Translations under genes and position numbers: made by a program | Notes under the pieces: generated by a model | What the model was told of the DNA's origin: nothing | Seen by the model: only the letters and a program-made list of their open reading frames with translations | Databases searched by the model: none | Assembly (NCBI RefSeq): GCF_016907915.1 | Contig: NZ_JAFBCW010000025.1 | Location: 1 to 42,525, forward strand | Reading direction: 5' to 3' | Origin: Desulforadius tongensis | GTDB lineage: Bacteria > Bacillota > Desulfotomaculia > Desulfotomaculales > Desulfohalotomaculaceae | Length of the DNA stretch: 42,525 bases | In this document: positions 28,981 to 38,042 of the stretch, in pieces | Layout: the number at the start of each line of letters is the position of its first letter | Numbering within the stretch: position 1 is the first letter of the stretch

Positions 28981-29021
28981 ATACTGGTGCACCACTAACC
29001 CTGGTGCACCAGTATTTTTTA
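28981..29021. terminator. Strong bidirectional terminator
   Basis: A perfect 13-bp stem (28981-28993 with 29003-29015) is followed by TTTTTT. It sits between the Cache/HAMP gene and a convergent gene. Confidence 0.9.
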
Positions 29022-29381
29022 GCAGTTTTTCCTACCTTGACAGGTTAAATAGGATAACAGATTCATAATACATTGATAGTTATGACGGCAGGAATTTTTG
29101 TCAACCTTCTTACCATGGTCATACCTGCCGCCATCAGCTTTGTCTTCGAAAGACTGGTACTTATGCTTGTATTTTAAATACTTTTCTTTATAATGCTTCC
29201 GGCATTTTTCAGCATCTTTCCCCTGGCAGTTATGGTATTTTTCCTTACAGTACTCCATTTTTTTCTTAAAATAATCCCGGTCATATTTTTTGCTGGCTTC
29301 CATCAATTTTTTGCCCCGCAGCTTCTTATTTTCCTCTTTTAATTTGTTCAACCATTTTTCATCGCTCTTGTCATATACCAC
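29019..29381 (-). CDS. Lys/Tyr/Cys-rich small basic protein, function unknown
   Basis: A 120-aa protein that is strongly basic and rich in Lys, Tyr and Cys (for example KKKMEYCKEKYHNC, EKCRKHYKEKYLKYKHKYQ). It has seven Cys and no signal peptide or membrane segment. Such composition recalls small spore-coat or cross-linked structural proteins, but that is only a composition argument. GTG 29381 follows GGGAGGT at 9 bases. It is transcribed alone, convergent with the sensor gene and divergent from the siroheme-like gene. Confidence 0.6.
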   Translation of the reverse strand: MVYDKSDEKWLNKLKEENKKLRGKKLMEASKKYDRDYFKKKMEYCKEKYHNCQGKDAEKCRKHYKEKYLKYKHKYQSFEDKADGGRYDHGKKVDKNSCRHNYQCIMNLLSYLTCQGRKNC

Positions 29382-29531
29382 CGGTACTATACCTCCCTTC
29401 CATTTTTTACATATTATTAAAGAAAATTTAATTTGGTCACTTCATACAGCAATTTTTTTGTTTTATTTAAAGGAATTTAACATATCTTGGAGTAAGTTTT
29501 ACTTAATTATAATTTTTGTGAGGTGATAAAC

Positions 29532-30251
29532 ATGGGGCAAGGAATTTTCCAACAACAGAGAAATGGCCTGTTTGCAGTTAATATCTCCTCGCCCGGTGGT
29601 ATTTTTACCGTTGACCAATTAGCTGGGTTGGCTAAAACCGCAGCAGAATTAAACGTTTGGAGAATTAAATGCGGAACCAGGCAAACATTGATTGTACTTT
29701 TAGAAGAGGAGAAAATAGATGCCTTAATTAACTCCATTAAGAAGTTAGGCTTAAAGGTTTCTCCCTTTGGCAGTACAGTGCGCAGCGTAAAATCCTGTGC
29801 CGGCGGCGAAGGTTTATGCCCCCGAATGCTGGGTGATGCACTGGAGCTGGGTATGGAAATAGAGAAAAAATACCTGGGTCAGCCCACCCCCAAGGATTTT
29901 AAAATTTCCACCTCCGGCTGCTCGCGGGGGTGCACAGAACCTTATTGTGCTGATTTCGGTGTTGTGGCCACCGGTAAAAATATGTATAGTATTATCATCG
30001 GCGGGCGCGGTTCCACCAAACAGCCTATACACGGCAGTATAATCGCTAAAGATGTGCCCAAGGATAAGGTTTTTGCCGTGTTGGACTTCGTGCTGAATAA
30101 ATACCGCCAATGGGGAGAAGAGCACGAGCGGTTGTGTAAAACCATTGAACGGGTTGGCTTAAAGGAGTTCACACCGCCGGAGGATATGTATGCCGCTGAT
30201 GGTGCAGCAGTAGATGAAGATTTTGCCAAGTTTTTATTAGGTGAGGATTAG
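29532..30251 (+). CDS. Small siroheme reductase-like protein (nitrite/sulfite reductase 4Fe-4S family)
   Basis: A 239-aa protein. Residues 10-75 resemble the ferredoxin-like half domain of nitrite/sulfite reductases (SPGGIFTVDQLAGLAKTAAE, RIKCGTRQTL). Residues 85-175 hold the Cys set for a 4Fe-4S-siroheme centre: C89, C96 (CAGGEGLC), C130 and C134 (TSGCSRGCTEPYC). The family usually has C-x5-C; here the first spacing is x6. This length matches low-molecular-mass sulfite reductase-like proteins rather than full dissimilatory enzymes. The electron donor and substrate are unknown. ATG 29532 follows GAGGTGA. It is co-transcribed with the twin-Cys protein downstream. Confidence 0.8.
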   Translation: MGQGIFQQQRNGLFAVNISSPGGIFTVDQLAGLAKTAAELNVWRIKCGTRQTLIVLLEEEKIDALINSIKKLGLKVSPFGSTVRSVKSCAGGEGLCPRMLGDALELGMEIEKKYLGQPTPKDFKISTSGCSRGCTEPYCADFGVVATGKNMYSIIIGGRGSTKQPIHGSIIAKDVPKDKVFAVLDFVLNKYRQWGEEHERLCKTIERVGLKEFTPPEDMYAADGAAVDEDFAKFLLGED

Positions 30252-30263
30252 GAGGGTCTTTGT

Positions 30264-30722
30264 ATGAGCATGCCAGCAAAGGGAAAAGTAAATGATGTTG
30301 ATCTAGGTGTCATACTATCCTGCCTGGAAAAGTTTTGTAACGAATGTGACGATAAGGATACAGCAAATTGTAAAGAAGCCAATTGTTTGGTGGGATTTGG
30401 CAAAAAAACATTGCGTTTTGCCATTCAAAAAGGTGTACTGGACATTCCCGGCGCGCATAATTTAATACCAAAAAATGATTTCAAACCATATTATCCCGAA
30501 TCTGTAGCCGCTGCACTGGCTGAAACCTGCAACCAGTGCCGTGAGTGCCGGGATAACCACAGCGCTGACTGCGTCATTTCACTGGTGCGCAATGCCTTGG
30601 AAAGTGCAGTTTTACAGGAAGAAATAGATTATCCCGGCAGCGTCTTTATGTACATGGCTAAAATTAAAGAACAAAACCCCGAGTTATCCAACGCTCTTGC
30701 TAAAGCATTAAGGGCAAAATAA
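30264..30722 (+). CDS. Twin CxxC-x7-C repeat protein, function unknown
   Basis: A 152-aa soluble protein made of two similar halves. Cys 25, 28 and 36 (C-x2-C-x7-C) recur as Cys 92, 95 and 103 with the same spacing. Each is followed by an amphipathic helix and a PG turn (DIPGA, DYPGS). Further Cys are 20, 41 and 89. The pattern suggests two metal or Fe-S sites. I do not recognise the family. It starts 12 bases after the siroheme-like gene, with GGAGGG before the ATG, so it is a likely electron-transfer or maturation partner. Confidence 0.75.
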   Translation: MSMPAKGKVNDVDLGVILSCLEKFCNECDDKDTANCKEANCLVGFGKKTLRFAIQKGVLDIPGAHNLIPKNDFKPYYPESVAAALAETCNQCRECRDNHSADCVISLVRNALESAVLQEEIDYPGSVFMYMAKIKEQNPELSNALAKALRAK

Positions 30723-30759: not shown

Positions 30760-31206
30760 GTGTCTTATTATCACGTGCCCATAGAAGTGCGGCAAAAAGT
30801 ACTCAAATTTGCAGAGCAATGCCTGGGTATTAACTTAATATTAACAACAAATGTACTATTTCCCAAAAGTGTTTACATTACAGATACCCTGTTTAGTGAT
30901 GCTCACCCGGAAAAATTTATTTTAATATTTGATGTTAAGAAAAATTATTCCGGAATAAAAACAGGTAATATCAGATATTTTCAAATTCCTTTACACCTGC
31001 GCCATAACGGTCTGGCTAAAAAGGTTTATCGCATGTTAGAAAAGGAATTTATAAATTTAGGCTGCCAAATGGTATCGGTGGAGGCCACAGTGGATCGCAG
31101 CGATCAAAGCCACACAACAGTGAGCTTTTGGGAAGGCCTAGGCTTTAAAAAATCAGCATACTGTTCCCCGGATGACGATGTATATCCCATGTACAAATAT
31201 CTTTAG
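30760..31206 (+). CDS. GNAT-like N-acetyltransferase domain protein
   Basis: A 148-aa protein. The acetyl-CoA-site region looks like LRHNGLAKKVYRMLEKEFI (a weak Q/R-x-x-G-x-A motif). The C-terminal FWEGLGFKKS fits the last strand-loop of GNAT folds. The N-terminal half is not typical. The substrate is unknown. GTG 30760 follows GAAGGG. It lies 37 bases downstream of the twin-Cys gene and may share its transcript, ending at the next terminator. Confidence 0.65.
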   Translation: MSYYHVPIEVRQKVLKFAEQCLGINLILTTNVLFPKSVYITDTLFSDAHPEKFILIFDVKKNYSGIKTGNIRYFQIPLHLRHNGLAKKVYRMLEKEFINLGCQMVSVEATVDRSDQSHTTVSFWEGLGFKKSAYCSPDDDVYPMYKYL

Positions 31207-31540: not shown

Positions 31541-32470
31541 CTAACTTATTACCGGAACATGCTGCCCTACCAGCCCGGCCTTTTCCACTATTTCGGGCAC
31601 AACGTCTTCCCAGTTGATGGCCATTATGTGTATCCCGGCCACACCCTCAATAGTCTTTAGATGCTGTACCTGTTCAATGCAAATTTTTATCCCCTCTGCC
31701 TTTTGGTCTTCTGCTTTTTCCATTCGCTCTATAATCTCGTCGGGAACGAGCATACCTGCCACACGCTGCTGAATAAATTTTGCCGCCCGGGCTGATTTTA
31801 ACGGAGTAACTCCGGCTATTATATGCACCTTTTTGTGCAGCCCGCGCCGGCGCACCATATCCATAAATTTTTCAAAGCGCTGCATATCAAAAATAGACTG
31901 GGTTTGAATAAAGTCTGCCCCGGCGTTAATTTTTTTCTCCAGGCGCATCACCCTGTACTCAAAGGGGTCGGCAAAGGGGTTGGCCACTGCACCAATAAAA
32001 TACCTGGGTTCATGCTGTTTAATCTCTTCCCCGCACTGGAATTTTTTGTCATCTCTCATGCCCCGTACCATATTAATCAGTTGAATGGAATCTATGTCAT
32101 AAACATTTTTGGCCTGGGGATGATTGCCAAATTTTTGATGATCACCGGATAAACACAACACATTGCGCATTCCCAAACTGTAGGCACCCAGCAAATCACT
32201 CTGCATGGCTATCCGGTTGCGGTCCCGGCAGGTAACCTGTATCACCGGCTCAACCCCGGCATTGTACAAATGCACCCCCGCGGCAATGCTGGATAAACGT
32301 ACAATGGCGGTTTGGTTATCAGTGATGTTTACTGCATCCACATAACCTTTCAGTATTTTAGCGGTGTTAATAATTCCCTCGGCAGAGGCGTGTTTGGGAG
32401 GTCCGATTTCAGCGGTAACGGCAAACCGGCCCTGGGAAAGAACTTTTTCTAAATTACTGCCACTCTTCAC
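31541..32470 (-). CDS. metF: Methylenetetrahydrofolate reductase MetF
   Basis: A 309-aa FAD-dependent TIM-barrel enzyme. Seen motifs are VTAEIGPPKHASAEGI, DAVNITDNQ, QVTCRDRNR, VLCLSGDHQ, GADFIQTQSIFD and HIIAGVTPLKSARAA. It reduces methylene-THF to methyl-THF in the methyl branch of the Wood-Ljungdahl pathway. GTG 32470 overlaps the metV stop (GTGA). It is the last gene of the hdrCBA-mvhD-metVF operon, which in Moorella encodes a single MetF-Hdr complex. The electron donor here is inferred to come through that complex rather than directly from NADH. Confidence 0.92.
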   Translation of the reverse strand: MKSGSNLEKVLSQGRFAVTAEIGPPKHASAEGIINTAKILKGYVDAVNITDNQTAIVRLSSIAAGVHLYNAGVEPVIQVTCRDRNRIAMQSDLLGAYSLGMRNVLCLSGDHQKFGNHPQAKNVYDIDSIQLINMVRGMRDDKKFQCGEEIKQHEPRYFIGAVANPFADPFEYRVMRLEKKINAGADFIQTQSIFDMQRFEKFMDMVRRRGLHKKVHIIAGVTPLKSARAAKFIQQRVAGMLVPDEIIERMEKAEDQKAEGIKICIEQVQHLKTIEGVAGIHIMAINWEDVVPEIVEKAGLVGQHVPVIS

Positions 32471-33135
32471 AGCTCTGCATCCTTTCTTTGTACCAACCTG
32501 GGACCGCCGGAACGTTCTTTAGACCAGTCTTTGGCCGGCCGGTATTCCAGCATTAAATCCAAACGGCCCAAAGCTGACAGTTTTTCATATATCAGGTGCC
32601 AGGCACAGGGGGTATCGGGGTTAATCTCGCATTTCCCGTTTTGTGAACCGCCGCAGGGCCCGTTTTGAATGCTCTTGGCACAACGGGTTATCGGGCATAT
32701 CCCACCGGTGAGGTGCAGTACGCAGTCTCCGCATAAGCCGCATCTTTCTTCCCACAGCCCGGCCTGCACCGTACCGCCGGCAAAAACGGTGTTCAGCGCC
32801 GGCAGTACCCATTTATCGGGGTAATGTTCAGCTAAAAACTGCACCCCCACGCCGCAGCCCAATGATACCACGGCGTCAACTTGGCTTACTTTTTCAGCAA
32901 TGCCGGCAACGAATTCCGGGTCACACTGCCTGGTAATGGTAGTAACCAATGTTTCCAGGGGGCGCCCCTGCTTTTTGCGTAAAATACGCAGTGCGGTGGC
33001 CAGTATTTCCGCCTCTGTTTCACCACCGGCCAGGCAAACGCTGGTGCAGCCGCTGCAACCCACCACCAACACTTTAGCACATTCCTTTATATAATCAGCC
33101 ACTTCTTTTACCGGCTTCGGCTGTGCCACAATCAA
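32467..33135 (-). CDS. metV: MetV, zinc-binding partner of MetF
   Basis: A 222-aa protein rich in Cys: GCSGCTSVCLAGGETEAE near the N-terminus, then ERCGLCGDCVLHLTGGICP and GPCGGSQNGKCE. The family (MetV, MTHFR_C-like) forms a complex with MetF in acetogens and binds zinc or Fe-S. It is required for MetF activity in Moorella-type enzymes. It overlaps metF by 4 bases and mvhD by 4 bases, indicating tight translational coupling. Confidence 0.88.
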   Translation of the reverse strand: MIVAQPKPVKEVADYIKECAKVLVVGCSGCTSVCLAGGETEAEILATALRILRKKQGRPLETLVTTITRQCDPEFVAGIAEKVSQVDAVVSLGCGVGVQFLAEHYPDKWVLPALNTVFAGGTVQAGLWEERCGLCGDCVLHLTGGICPITRCAKSIQNGPCGGSQNGKCEINPDTPCAWHLIYEKLSALGRLDLMLEYRPAKDWSKERSGGPRLVQRKDAEL

Positions 33136-33554
33136 AGCGAATCACCTACCTTAACCGGGCTGGGACCCAGTTTTTTTATCCTAGCAGTAAATTCATCGGC
33201 TATTTCGGCAAAGCGGTCGCCCTGGGCCCCGCTCAAATTATACATGGCCAGTCTTTCCGGTTCTATTCCCAGTTCACTTAATATCTTTTGTATATATTCC
33301 ACCCGCTTGCGGGCCCGGATATTGCCTTTTAAAAAGTGGCAGTCACCTTCCAAACAGCCGGCCACATATACACCGTCCGCCCCTTCTTCAAAGGCTTTCA
33401 AAATTACCACCGGATCCACCCGGCCGGAACAGGGTATTTCAATTACCCTAACCTCCGGGGCATACTGCAGCCGCAGTGAACCGGCCACGTCAGCCGCGGC
33501 ATAAGCACAGTAGTAACAGCAAAAAGCGATAATTTGGGGTTTAAAATCACCCAC
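33132..33554 (-). CDS. mvhD: MvhD/FrhD-like 2Fe-2S electron-transfer subunit
   Basis: A 140-aa protein of the methyl-viologen hydrogenase delta family. The 2Fe-2S ligand region is FCCYYCAYAAAD, followed by IPCSGRVDP and GCLEGDCHFL. It transfers electrons between HdrA and another module, here MetFV. It lies between metV and hdrA and overlaps both. The YY in CCYYC replaces the more usual NWC arrangement, but the ligand Cys are kept. Confidence 0.9.
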   Translation of the reverse strand: MGDFKPQIIAFCCYYCAYAAADVAGSLRLQYAPEVRVIEIPCSGRVDPVVILKAFEEGADGVYVAGCLEGDCHFLKGNIRARKRVEYIQKILSELGIEPERLAMYNLSGAQGDRFAEIADEFTARIKKLGPSPVKVGDSL

Positions 33555-36500
33555 TTGATGCCACCTCCCCGTTAAACAAAGCCCGCACTTTCTCCGTTAA
33601 CTGTTCACTGCGGTAATGTTCCAACGTAATGGCCCTGTTGGGACAGGCACCGGCACAGGTGCCGCAGCCCTGGCACTGTACGGCACTGATCTCCGCCACG
33701 TTATCCGTGCCAATGCGGGGAACACCATAGGGGCATACCCGAACACAGGTCAGGCAGGCGGCGCATTTTTCCGGTAATACCCTGGCCACTGCCCCGCCGG
33801 CCAATAAATGAGCCTTAGAAAGTATAGTGGCCGCCCTGGCCGCCGCCCCCCTTCCCTGGGCCATTGCTTCACCGATACTTTGGGGAGAGTGGGCTGCTCC
33901 ACAAATAAATACCCCGGGAGCCGGAACATCCAGCGGTGCCAGCTTGGCATGTGTTTCCACCAAGAAACCGTCCTCGTTGACGGGAATTTTAAGCAGCCCG
34001 GCCAGCTTCTCCACCCCCTCAGACGGCACAGCGGCAGTGGCCAGCACCACTAATTCTGCAGCCAGCTGCAGTTCCTCCCGGCAGGCCGGGTCGTACACGT
34101 CTACATCCACCGCTTCAGAACCACTGCGCAGTACCGGCGGCTTGTCCAGATCATAGTTAATGAAAATTACTCCCTTCTCCCTGGCCAGGCGATAATCCCG
34201 TTCCATAAAACCGTAGGTACGCACATCGCGATACAGCACATATACATTTACACCGGGGTTTAATTCTTTCAATGCCAACGCCTGGCGGACGGTTTGAACA
34301 CAGCAGGTACGGCTGCAGTACTCCCTGCCCTGCTGCCGGGATTCAACACACTGAATAAAAACAACTGTATTTAACCGATCAATATTTTTATTTTCCCCAA
34401 GGTACTTTTCCATTTCCAACCGGGTAATCACCCGGTTATCTTTGCCGTACAAATAACCCCGTACCGGCGCTTCGCAGTTACCGGTGGCCGTAATAACCAC
34501 CCCGTGATGCAGGTGCACCGTTTTTTCCCCCACCTGCAGTGTGGAGTGAAAACTTCCAATGCGACCGCTTAAATGAGTTAATTCCGCTTCCTTGTACACC
34601 GTTATATTAGGATGATTGATCACCGCTTCAATTTTTTGCCTTAATAAATCCCTGGGATTTTCACCCCGCTGGGGCAGATACAACCGGTTCAGCAGGCCCC
34701 CCAGGTAAGGCCGGCGTTCCACCAGATATACCCCGTACCCCTGGTCAGCCAGCGAAAGCGAAGCCGTCATTCCGGCTATACCGGCTCCCACAACCAGAGC
34801 CTTTTGTTCCACCGGCACCGGTTCCAGGTGTAGGGGTTGGTTCCGGCACACTTTTCCCACCGCCATGGCCACCAAGTCCTTGGCCTTGGCGGTGGCCCGG
34901 CGGGGATAATCGCGATGTACCCAGGAGCACTGGTCCCGTATGTTGGCCATTTCCAGGTAATACTGGTTTAATCCCGCCTGTTTTAAAGTCTCCCGGAATA
35001 AAGGCAGGTGAGTACGCACCGAACAGGCCGCCACCACCACACGGTTTAACTGATACTGCTCTATGATTTCTTTTACCCGCTGCAGGGATTCCTGGGCACA
35101 GCTGTAGGTAAACTGCCAGGCATTAACCACCGCCGGTAAAGAAGAGGCATATTTTACCACAGCAGGTACATCCACCACCCCGGCAATGTTACTGCCGCAG
35201 CAGCAGACAAAAACCCCCACCCGCGGCTGCCGGTTCTGAAGATCTTTTTCTCGGGGATACCGCACCACCTGCTCCATTGAACCCCTGGCAGCTGACAGCA
35301 GCTCGGCGGCAGCTGCTGCCGCGGCGCTGCCGTTCACCACCGTTTCCGGTATATCCCGGGGGCCAATAAATCCGCCGGCAGCAAATACCCCGGGACGGGT
35401 GGTTTCCACCGGGTTAAATTCACCGGTGCGAGCAAAACCGTAACGGTTTAATTCTATACCGGCACTACGGGCCAACTGGCCGGCGCTGCCCGGCGGGCGA
35501 ACCCCCGCTCCCAACACCACCATGTCAAAATCGGCAGTATATACCTCCCCCTGTTCACAATAACTTACATTCAAATTACCCGTTGCCGGATCTTCTTTTA
35601 CCGAAGATATTAAACAGCGCTGCAGCTTTATCCCCTGGGCCAGTGCCCGGTTAACATAACGATCAAAATTCTTACCGTGGGCACGCATATCAAGATAAAA
35701 TATGGTAACTTCCATCTCCGGGTGATGCTCCTTTGCTATCACCGCTTCCTTGACAGAAGCCATACAGCAAACCGCAGAACAGTATTCCGCACCGTACTTG
35801 TTTCTATAATCCCGGGAACCAACGCATTGAATAAATGCCACCCGCCGGGGTATTTTTCTGTCGGAGGGGCGATATATACGCCCACCGGTGGGACCGGTGG
35901 AGGACAGCATCCGTTCAAATTGAATGTTGCTCACCACGTTGGGATAATAACCCATCCCGTACTCCCCCAAAAGCGAAGCATCAAAGGAATCAAAGCCCGG
36001 GGCCAAAATCACCGCGCCCACGGACAGCTCCAATATCTCCGGCTGCTGCCGGTGATCTATGGCTTTGGCAGTACATACCTTTACACATTTCATACAGCCG
36101 ATACAGTTTTCTTTGTCAATGGCAAATTTATTGGGTACCGCCTGGGGAAATTGTTTGTAAATGGCCCTGCGCTGAGAAAGACCGCCGTTAAATTCATCCG
36201 CCACTTTAACGGGACAAACTTCAGCACACTGGCCACAGCCGGTGCAGCGTGATTCATCCACATACCGGGGATAACGTTCAACAACGGCGGTAAAACGGCC
36301 GGGTTGTCCCAACAAGTTAGACAACTTGGCTCTGGTCAAAAGTTTTATGTTAACCTGATTTAAACTGCCGGTCATCTTGGGGCCCAGCAGACACATGGAA
36401 CACTCGTTGGTGGGAAAAGTTTTATCTAATTTAGCCATTCGCCCGCCCAGCGAATCATCAAAAGTTATCATGTATACCAAAAAACCCGATTCTGCCAAAT

Positions 36501-36588
36501 CAGAAGCAGCCTGCATCCCCGCAATGCCGCCGCCAACTACCAGAACGGCTCCCACCGCTTTGGTTTTAACACCAGCATGTTCACTCAT
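33547..36588 (-). CDS. hdrA: Heterodisulfide reductase subunit HdrA, long two-FAD form
   Basis: A 1013-aa flavoprotein. The first FAD site is GGGIAG at 19-24, then FPTNECSMCLLGPKM. Two 4Fe-4S clusters follow (C115/118/121/125 and C162/165/168/172). The second half has another FAD motif (LVVGAGIAGMTASL) and an HdrA-like repeat. The C-terminus is a 2x4Fe-4S ferredoxin (CAACLTCVRVCP, CQGCGTCAGACP). So this is a duplicated HdrA fused in one chain. It is the flavin hub of electron bifurcation in Hdr complexes. ATG 36588 (MSEHAGVK) is chosen because GAAGGG precedes it; the longer frame overlaps hdrB and reads unlike protein. Confidence 0.92.
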   Translation of the reverse strand: MSEHAGVKTKAVGAVLVVGGGIAGMQAASDLAESGFLVYMITFDDSLGGRMAKLDKTFPTNECSMCLLGPKMTGSLNQVNIKLLTRAKLSNLLGQPGRFTAVVERYPRYVDESRCTGCGQCAEVCPVKVADEFNGGLSQRRAIYKQFPQAVPNKFAIDKENCIGCMKCVKVCTAKAIDHRQQPEILELSVGAVILAPGFDSFDASLLGEYGMGYYPNVVSNIQFERMLSSTGPTGGRIYRPSDRKIPRRVAFIQCVGSRDYRNKYGAEYCSAVCCMASVKEAVIAKEHHPEMEVTIFYLDMRAHGKNFDRYVNRALAQGIKLQRCLISSVKEDPATGNLNVSYCEQGEVYTADFDMVVLGAGVRPPGSAGQLARSAGIELNRYGFARTGEFNPVETTRPGVFAAGGFIGPRDIPETVVNGSAAAAAAAELLSAARGSMEQVVRYPREKDLQNRQPRVGVFVCCCGSNIAGVVDVPAVVKYASSLPAVVNAWQFTYSCAQESLQRVKEIIEQYQLNRVVVAACSVRTHLPLFRETLKQAGLNQYYLEMANIRDQCSWVHRDYPRRATAKAKDLVAMAVGKVCRNQPLHLEPVPVEQKALVVGAGIAGMTASLSLADQGYGVYLVERRPYLGGLLNRLYLPQRGENPRDLLRQKIEAVINHPNITVYKEAELTHLSGRIGSFHSTLQVGEKTVHLHHGVVITATGNCEAPVRGYLYGKDNRVITRLEMEKYLGENKNIDRLNTVVFIQCVESRQQGREYCSRTCCVQTVRQALALKELNPGVNVYVLYRDVRTYGFMERDYRLAREKGVIFINYDLDKPPVLRSGSEAVDVDVYDPACREELQLAAELVVLATAAVPSEGVEKLAGLLKIPVNEDGFLVETHAKLAPLDVPAPGVFICGAAHSPQSIGEAMAQGRGAAARAATILSKAHLLAGGAVARVLPEKCAACLTCVRVCPYGVPRIGTDNVAEISAVQCQGCGTCAGACPNRAITLEHYRSEQLTEKVRALFNGEVASSG

Positions 36589-36622
36589 AACAATCAACCC
36601 TTCAATAATTAGGTATCTTAAA

Positions 36623-37486
36623 TTACAATAAGCCCAGCTCTTCAAGCAAAGGCACGGGATCAACAATGTGCTTTCTAAACCACCGTCTCGCTTCCGGCAT
36701 TCCCAGCGCCACACCCACCAGCTCGGTGATATAAAAAACCGGCATTTGAACCTCATTTTCCTTTTGCCTGGTATCCAGGTTAGCTTGACACAGGGGACAC
36801 GCCGTTACTATGGCTGCAGCCCCGCCCCGCCGGGCAGCGGATACAATGTCCGCGGTCAATTTGCCAACCACACCGGACTCCGCCAGGGTAAAACTGCCCC
36901 CGCAGCAGTCCACTTTGGCCGACCAGCGCACCGTTTCCGCTCCCAGCGCTTTGGCAAGGTTATCTATGGATTGAGGCTGTTCAGGATCATCAAAAGCCAC
37001 CACTTCCGCCGGCCTCAACATTAAACAGCCATAGTAGGCCGCTAATTTTAAGCCTGCCAACGGAGTAACGACCTTTTCAGGCAGCAGATCCAGCACCTGC
37101 TGCTGCAAAATCACTTCCATGATGTGCTTAATCTGCAGCGTCCCCTTATATCCCCGCCCCATCACTTCAGTTAATTCTTCATTTGCTTTTCTGCCCACCG
37201 GTGTTCCTTCAACAACCTCGCGGTGGGCCACCCGCTGCCAGTGATAACACGCAGCACAGGGTACAACCATATCCAAACCCATGGACTCAGCCAGTATCAA
37301 ATTTCTAAGGGGCAGGGCCACCGACAGGTAAGCGCTGGCCGAGTGGGCAGAAGTGGCTCCACAGCAGTTCCAATCCGGTATTTCCTGCAGCTCTATTCCC
37401 AACCGGGCACAAATAGCTTCGGAAGACAGGTTGTACTCCGATGCCGTGGAGCATAACGAACACCCGGGATAATAACTGTACTTCAC
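36623..37486 (-). CDS. hdrB: Heterodisulfide reductase subunit HdrB
   Basis: A 287-aa protein with two CCG-type cysteine-rich domains: NCCGATSAH and then DCCGGSFTL, with PCAACYHW and ACPLCQANLD. These bind the non-cubane 4Fe-4S clusters of HdrB. GTG 37486 gives VKYSYYPGCSLCSTASEY, the standard HdrB start; an upstream in-frame ATG is inside hdrC. It follows hdrC by 4 bases. In acetogens HdrB works without a known heterodisulfide substrate. Confidence 0.92.
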   Translation of the reverse strand: MKYSYYPGCSLCSTASEYNLSSEAICARLGIELQEIPDWNCCGATSAHSASAYLSVALPLRNLILAESMGLDMVVPCAACYHWQRVAHREVVEGTPVGRKANEELTEVMGRGYKGTLQIKHIMEVILQQQVLDLLPEKVVTPLAGLKLAAYYGCLMLRPAEVVAFDDPEQPQSIDNLAKALGAETVRWSAKVDCCGGSFTLAESGVVGKLTADIVSAARRGGAAAIVTACPLCQANLDTRQKENEVQMPVFYITELVGVALGMPEARRWFRKHIVDPVPLLEELGLL

Positions 37487-37490
37487 ACCA

Positions 37491-38042
37491 TCACAACCCC
37501 TTCCGGATATTGTCATTCTTACGAGCACAGGCAAATATTTTCCTTATTTCCTGATAATTTCTTATTCGCCCGGGCAGCAGTTTAATTTTACGTCTCTTAA
37601 TCATCTTGAGCCCCAGCTTAATATCCTGGGTAAAGGTTTTGGTTTTAATCTTATAAGTACCTATCCAACCGGCCTCATACACCCGGCCCAGCTTCTCCAC
37701 CGACTGCAAAAAAGATTGGTACATAACAGGAATATTGGGCAGGGCGGGAGCAATACCATCTGCTAAGGCTTTCGACTTTAACCAGTCCATAACTACAGAA
37801 GCATCTATATCATTGGGACAACGCTGCTTGCATGTTTTACAAAAGGCACACAGCCAAATAGTTTTACTTTTTAACAACTTGTCCAACCGGTTTAAGTTTA
37901 CCAGTCTGATAACTTCATGGGTCTTTAAATCCGCGGCAAAGGAAACCGGGCACCCGCTGCTGCACTTCATACAGTTATAACAACCGGTGGTTACCTGCCC
38001 GGTTTCTGCAAACAATAAACTCGCCAAACCAACAGCTGCCAC
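37491..38042 (-). CDS. hdrC: Heterodisulfide reductase subunit HdrC
   Basis: A 183-aa protein with two 4Fe-4S motifs, CYNCMKCSSGCP and CAFCKTCKQRCP. Helical residues and a basic tail follow. It links HdrA to HdrB. GTG 38042 sits 6 bases after GGAGGT. It is the first gene of the six-gene operon. A TATAAT-like -10 lies at 38075-38080, but I see no good -35. Confidence 0.9.
   Translation of the reverse strand: MAAVGLASLLFAETGQVTTGCYNCMKCSSGCPVSFAADLKTHEVIRLVNLNRLDKLLKSKTIWLCAFCKTCKQRCPNDIDASVVMDWLKSKALADGIAPALPNIPVMYQSFLQSVEKLGRVYEAGWIGTYKIKTKTFTQDIKLGLKMIKRRKIKLLPGRIRNYQEIRKIFACARKNDNIRKGL

Follow-up and report, generated by a model that had tools for sequence, protein, structure and literature searches.

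The window analysed in this study is a stretch of 42,525 nucleotides of DNA of Desulforadius tongensis, an anaerobic sulfate reducer, and the locus of interest consists of two open reading frames, P1 and P2, whose features are listed in Table 1. P1 and P2 share a reading frame and are separated in the window by a TAG stop codon, with 12 nt between the P1 stop and the P2 start. The ribosome-binding site of P2 overlaps the P1 stop codon; the original prediction had called the two genes translationally close. A GTG at 29523 provides an alternative start for P1.

Table 1. Features of the P1-P2 locus in the window (aa, amino acids).
Feature	Position	Strand	Description
P1 ORF	29532..30251	+	239 aa; small siroheme/[4Fe-4S] protein (predicted); NIR_SIR_ferr half domain and NIR_SIR domain
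P1 cofactor/active-site stretch	29796..29948	+	C89-x6-C96, D122, K124, C130-x3-C134, extra C139; counts over 50 P2-paired P1s and 26 controls
P1 tail, residues 217-239	30180..30248	+	contains putative docking motif DEDFAKFL
Putative docking motif DEDFAKFL, residues 228-235	30213-30236	+	motif in 51/51 with P2, 0/26 without
AGGAGG ribosome-binding site of P2	30250..30255	+	overlaps P1 stop codon; read from the sequence
P2 ORF	30264..30722	+	152 aa; unnamed family, all-helical, internally duplicated
P2 site A, Cys4	30336..30386	+	C25, C28, C36, C41; four Cys in 66/66 homologues
P2 site B, Cys3His	30537..30572	+	C92, C95, H99, C103; all four ligands in 66/66 homologues
P3, weakly GNAT-like ORF	30760..31206	+	downstream, lineage-specific neighbour

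The GNAT-like gene P3 had been suggested as a third member of the system. Its match to the Pfam GNAT family lies under the cut-off (E 0.083) and homologues at the same place were found only in G037, G038, and G041, all of the window's own family. As it is conserved beside the pair in that family only, P3 was rejected as a third member of the module. Divergent from P1, the minus strand encodes a lysine- and cysteine-rich protein of 120 aa (29019-29381), whose relatives occur in the same family only (L066, L067, and L068), the L066 form being longer and repetitive. A minus-strand cluster at 31541-38042 contains a MetF-like protein, an HdrA-like protein of 1069 aa, and other cysteine-rich redox proteins, all named by reading the sequence.

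P1 was matched above the cut-off by the Pfam families PF01077 (NIR_SIR) and PF03460 (NIR_SIR_ferr), with E-values of 5.5e-24 and 1.2e-9, respectively. Its nearest solved relatives by sequence in the PDB are F420-dependent sulfite reductases (Fsr, 9tn7/7np8), and a Foldseek search with the AF2 model of P1 returned 7np8 as the best match (E 4e-14). The three lines of comparison agree with the earlier description of P1 as a siroheme-type protein, which is thereby predicted from family, sequence, and fold alike. No ferredoxin domain was found by Pfam in the 239 residues of P1.

Residues of P1 were placed on the Fsr enzyme MjFsr via the PDB sequence-search alignment, with residue roles following PMC10229431. 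The cluster cysteines C89, C96, C130, and C134 are present in 50/50 P2-paired P1s, and the extra Cys139 is invariant among them as well. All 50, together with 3/3 other members of the clade, show a CX6C spacing, whereas the Fsr rows show CX5C; the canonical spacing of assimilatory-type sulfite reductases and Fsr is CX5CXnCX3C (PMC10229431). Sulfite is bound in MjFsr by R355, R423, K460, and K462 (PMC10229431). R50, R84, and K124 of P1 correspond to R388, R423, and K462 of MjFsr and are kept in 50/50, while the K460 position is occupied by Asp in all 50 (D122 in the window) and neither Arg nor Lys was found at the R355 position in any of them. The Arg at the R388 position, a trait of aSir, is thus universal in the P2-paired P1s as R50, while all of the other small paralogues lack it (23/23). 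P1 therefore keeps two of the four residues that bind sulfite (the R423 and K462 equivalents), and the lack of the other two together with CX6C in place of CX5C makes ordinary sulfite reduction by P1 doubtful. L098 and L099 hold two more small siroheme proteins from the same genome, which occur without P2 and lack the Arg at the R388 position.

The altered pocket also bears on an alternative in which P1 is a siroheme-based sensor or carrier, not a reductase, and P2 relays its state. While the two missing substrate-binding residues, one of them consistently replaced by Asp, would suit such a role, the retention of R50, R84, and K124 in every P2-paired P1 argues against it, as does the finding of no conserved regulator nearby, and this alternative appears quite improbable. 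In the P1 tree, the subfamily forms one clade of 53 rows with a support of 100/100. On these sequence traits, P1 represents a distinct subfamily of predicted siroheme proteins that is new among the small siroheme proteins.

A match of P2 to a characterised, unrelated family would have refuted the original prediction. However, no relative was found in Pfam, NCBIfam, or the PDB, a PDB profile search included. DUF4606, zf-C4pol, DUF2284, and moaA were rejected as its family because their Pfam/NCBIfam matches were sub-cut-off and inconsistent, and methionine gamma-lyase, the sole match of the P2 profile search in the PDB (E 0.23), was set aside. No Pfam match to a ferredoxin or rubredoxin domain was obtained for P2 or for the 27 members scanned. 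The AF2 model of P2 is a helical bundle (pLDDT 87) for which Foldseek returned nothing significant (E above 1), and its similarity to ferritins and bacterioferritins (VIA Z about 6, rmsd about 4 Å over about 96 residues) falls in the range of common helical arrangements.

Across 27 P2 homologues, 22 columns are invariant. The two halves of the protein are homologous, with an hhalign E-value of 3.3e-6 and a score of 37, whereas 100 column shuffles reached at most 17. The original prediction described two halves with identical C-x2-C-x7-C spacing. The duplication was recovered, and C25-x2-C28-x7-C36 and C92-x2-C95-x7-C103 are literally present in the P2 of the window, but the register is not conserved, as C103 pairs with C41 in the alignment of the halves and the invariant H99 falls near C36. 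In site A, C25, C36, and C41 are invariant (66/66), while the second Cys occupies the C28 column in 39 homologues and a shifted column in 27, so the spacing itself is not a conserved character. P2 thus represents a domain that has been duplicated and holds two invariant Cys/His sites of four ligands each, predicted to be of a metal-binding type, which is compatible with the earlier suggestion that it might hold two clusters.

The distribution of the two genes was surveyed in 113 genomes of the window's class and in 398 evenly sampled genomes of Bacillota. In the former, P2 was matched in 38 genomes, a few of the copies being decayed, and close P1 homologues adjoin P2. In the latter, P2 occurred in 50 and the P1 subfamily in 31 genomes, and in 30 of these 31 P2 was adjacent, directly downstream and on the same strand, G045 being the exception (Fisher p ~1e-30). 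A lack of co-occurrence in other genomes would have refuted the original prediction, but the pair was found together well beyond the window. The 90 pair records contain 51 distinct P1s, the window included, and the distance between P1 and P2 ranges from -11 to 51 nt apart from one outlier of 153. Gene order (P1 then P2) and strand are constant, while the surrounding genes vary between families; such differing neighbours around a constant pair point to a two-gene module. The NIR_SIR match of P1, the invariant columns of P2, and the adjacency in dozens of genomes place the pair beyond chance. Comparative genomics thus identifies P1 and P2 as a conserved, predicted two-gene operon, and the case for their coupling is strong.

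P2 relatives, again with an adjacent P1, turned up in MAGs of Syntrophomonas and Heliobacteriaceae. Dissimilatory sulfate reduction was rejected as a requirement on account of these relatives and of G033, G094, and G101, which carry the pair without a dsrA match, so that the pair does not require the dissimilatory sulfite reductase; many dsrA-positive genomes are without the pair. Both genes decay together in G038, where P1 is reduced to a remnant of 79 aa from its end and P2 lacks the ligand C92, and a fused remnant of P1 and P2 is retained in G043. P2 was not found on plasmids. The original prediction knew of no named system with this pair, and the open-access literature likewise yielded no published description. 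The decaying copies, a truncated P1 with a P2 ligand lost and a fused remnant, lie at L067:8812-9493 and L096:8285-8644, and L171 (G426) carries two tandem P1-P2 pairs side by side.

P2-partnered P1s run 23-35 residues past the conserved R-x-G-x3-F end of the domain. Within this tail, the motif [FL]-x-x-[FLM], mostly preceded by an acidic residue, occurs in all 51 distinct P2-paired P1s and in none of the 26 small siroheme proteins without P2, although these 51 are not independent events, as the comparison is largely one clade against the rest. Inside the clade, P2 is missing in G045/G046 and in G034, and the tail motif is missing in all of these as well. P2 was thus apparently lost twice, each time together with the motif, which amounts to about two independent tests of the association. 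As judged from these sequences, the tail comes and goes with P2, which suggests that it docks P2. A complex was modelled with AF2 on a single chain, the window being read through the TAG with 13 in-frame relatives and unpaired rows, L108 being left out of the alignment. In this fusion of artificially joined chains (mean pLDDT 91.9, pTM 0.76), the tail forms a helix at 229-236 with a pLDDT of about 76-82, and the model lends weak support to a P1-P2 complex.

P2 also occurs in other settings. Among 20 sampled genomes with P2 and without P1, a rubrerythrin without a rubredoxin domain was found beside P2 in 15. These rubrerythrins of ~142 aa (PF02915, E 1e-14) mostly lie directly downstream of P2, with two lying upstream and one, in G149, separated from it by one ORF. 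The arrangement was seen at L148, L153-L157, L160, L165, L168, L170, L174, L176, and L177. The class includes ferriperoxin, a rubrerythrin without a rubredoxin domain whose peroxidase activity is driven by NADPH and FNR (PMC3317640) and which is therefore an enzyme in need of an external electron donor. The class is the second conserved neighbour of P2. The enzyme is unrelated to P1, and its reported donor system is NADPH and FNR (PMC3317640), not P2. Since short rubrerythrins are frequent without P2, P2 is no obligatory donor there. One further P2 is fused to a CDGSH iron-sulfur domain with two CDGSH motifs in a Clostridium MAG (L126:4971-5666), and in three cases a GDT1 (UPF0016) cation exporter bears a P2-like domain at its C-terminus (L169:6790-7881, L172:6642-7463, and L173:7071-8246), some of these copies keeping one of the two Cys sites only. 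A gene that appears Hcp-like by eye follows the L172 fusion. Electron transfer is argued mainly, and indirectly, from the position of P2 beside enzymes that depend on an electron donor. The fusions to GDT1 point to a broader adaptor role and count against a redox role, as these exporters need no electrons.

The settings of P2 also inform on the possibility that it is an assembly factor delivering siroheme or the [4Fe-4S] cluster to P1. A chaperone would be equally in keeping with the stable pairing of the genes and with a tail of docking type. However, other small siroheme proteins of the same genomes do without P2, P1 is kept without it in G045, G046, and G034, and rubrerythrin, another partner of P2, is a di-iron protein that contains no siroheme, so that this explanation is considered improbable.

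Sites of the Cys4 and Cys3His kinds are characteristic of zinc, and those of P2 would suit it as well as iron. P2 could accordingly be a zinc-binding structural or regulatory adaptor that docks to the P1 tail, to rubrerythrin, and to the GDT1 exporter, and that anchors or regulates them depending on the metal or redox state, without itself transporting electrons. The fusions to cation exporters fit this well, and the shifting second ligand of site A would be tolerable in a structural zinc site. By contrast, the commonest partners of P2 are redox enzymes, with one fusion to CDGSH, and both sites are strictly kept in the P1-paired copies. A zinc adaptor is thus rather unlikely, if clearly the more serious contender beside the assembly factor and the sensor.

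The reading preferred here, to which we give about an even chance, is that P1 is a siroheme reductase not described before, which docks P2 as its dedicated redox partner with metal sites, in a module of anaerobic Bacillota. The tail of P1 would hold P2 in a stable complex, the two sites of P2 would carry redox-active iron, Fe-S, or similar, and electrons would pass from P2 to the [4Fe-4S]-siroheme centre of P1. Other siroheme reductases rely for this on ferredoxin or a ferredoxin domain, whose role P2 would take. The species reduced by P1 may be a small oxidised compound of nitrogen or sulfur that is not ordinary sulfite; nitrite, hydroxylamine, or NO is the likeliest, with detoxification as the presumed purpose. 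Electron transfer, metal, and substrate all enter this reading as we infer them. A bolder version is tentative and on the unlikely side: P2 would found a new class of electron carrier with one Cys4 and one Cys3His site, serving as an interchangeable adaptor for siroheme reductases, rubrerythrins without rubredoxin, CDGSH proteins, and cation exporters, and the siroheme enzyme P1 would act on a new substrate.

Anaerobes commonly possess small siroheme proteins, whose electron donors and substrates are mostly obscure. For one subfamily, the pair offers an answer that can be tested, as it combines a fixed partner, a defined docking-type tail, and an altered active site. P2, in turn, is an unnamed domain family that recurs by other stress-linked redox proteins, and solving it would help to explain several unannotated genes.

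Among known systems, P1 resembles the proteins of Group I Dsr-LP / alSir (e.g., Desulfovibrio vulgaris DVU1597; PMC3448663), in which a single small polypeptide carries the coupled siroheme-[4Fe-4S] motif and lacks a ferredoxin domain of its own, whereas P1 differs in its CX6C, the invariant extra Cys139, the docking-type tail, and the dedicated partner. Three or four sulfite-binding Arg/Lys residues are reported in every Dsr-LP group (PMC3448663) compared to two of four in P1, which places P1 outside the described Dsr-LP subgroups. The C-terminal part of MjFsr (PDB 7np8) is the best fold match and a near-best sequence match and shares the R388, R423, and K462 equivalents; P1 differs from it by the Asp at the K460 position, the absence of R355, and the lack of both the ferredoxin and the F420H2-oxidase portions. 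DEACI_1836 of Acididesulfobacillus acetoxydans is, like P1, a small siroheme protein of sulfate-reducing Bacillota, but it has 300 aa and its gene adjoins a ferredoxin gene and a hypothetical protein; it is induced during nitrate reduction and has been proposed as a nitrite reductase (PMC10949509). Judged by its length, it probably belongs to another subfamily than P1, as does the paralogue at G000:C10.
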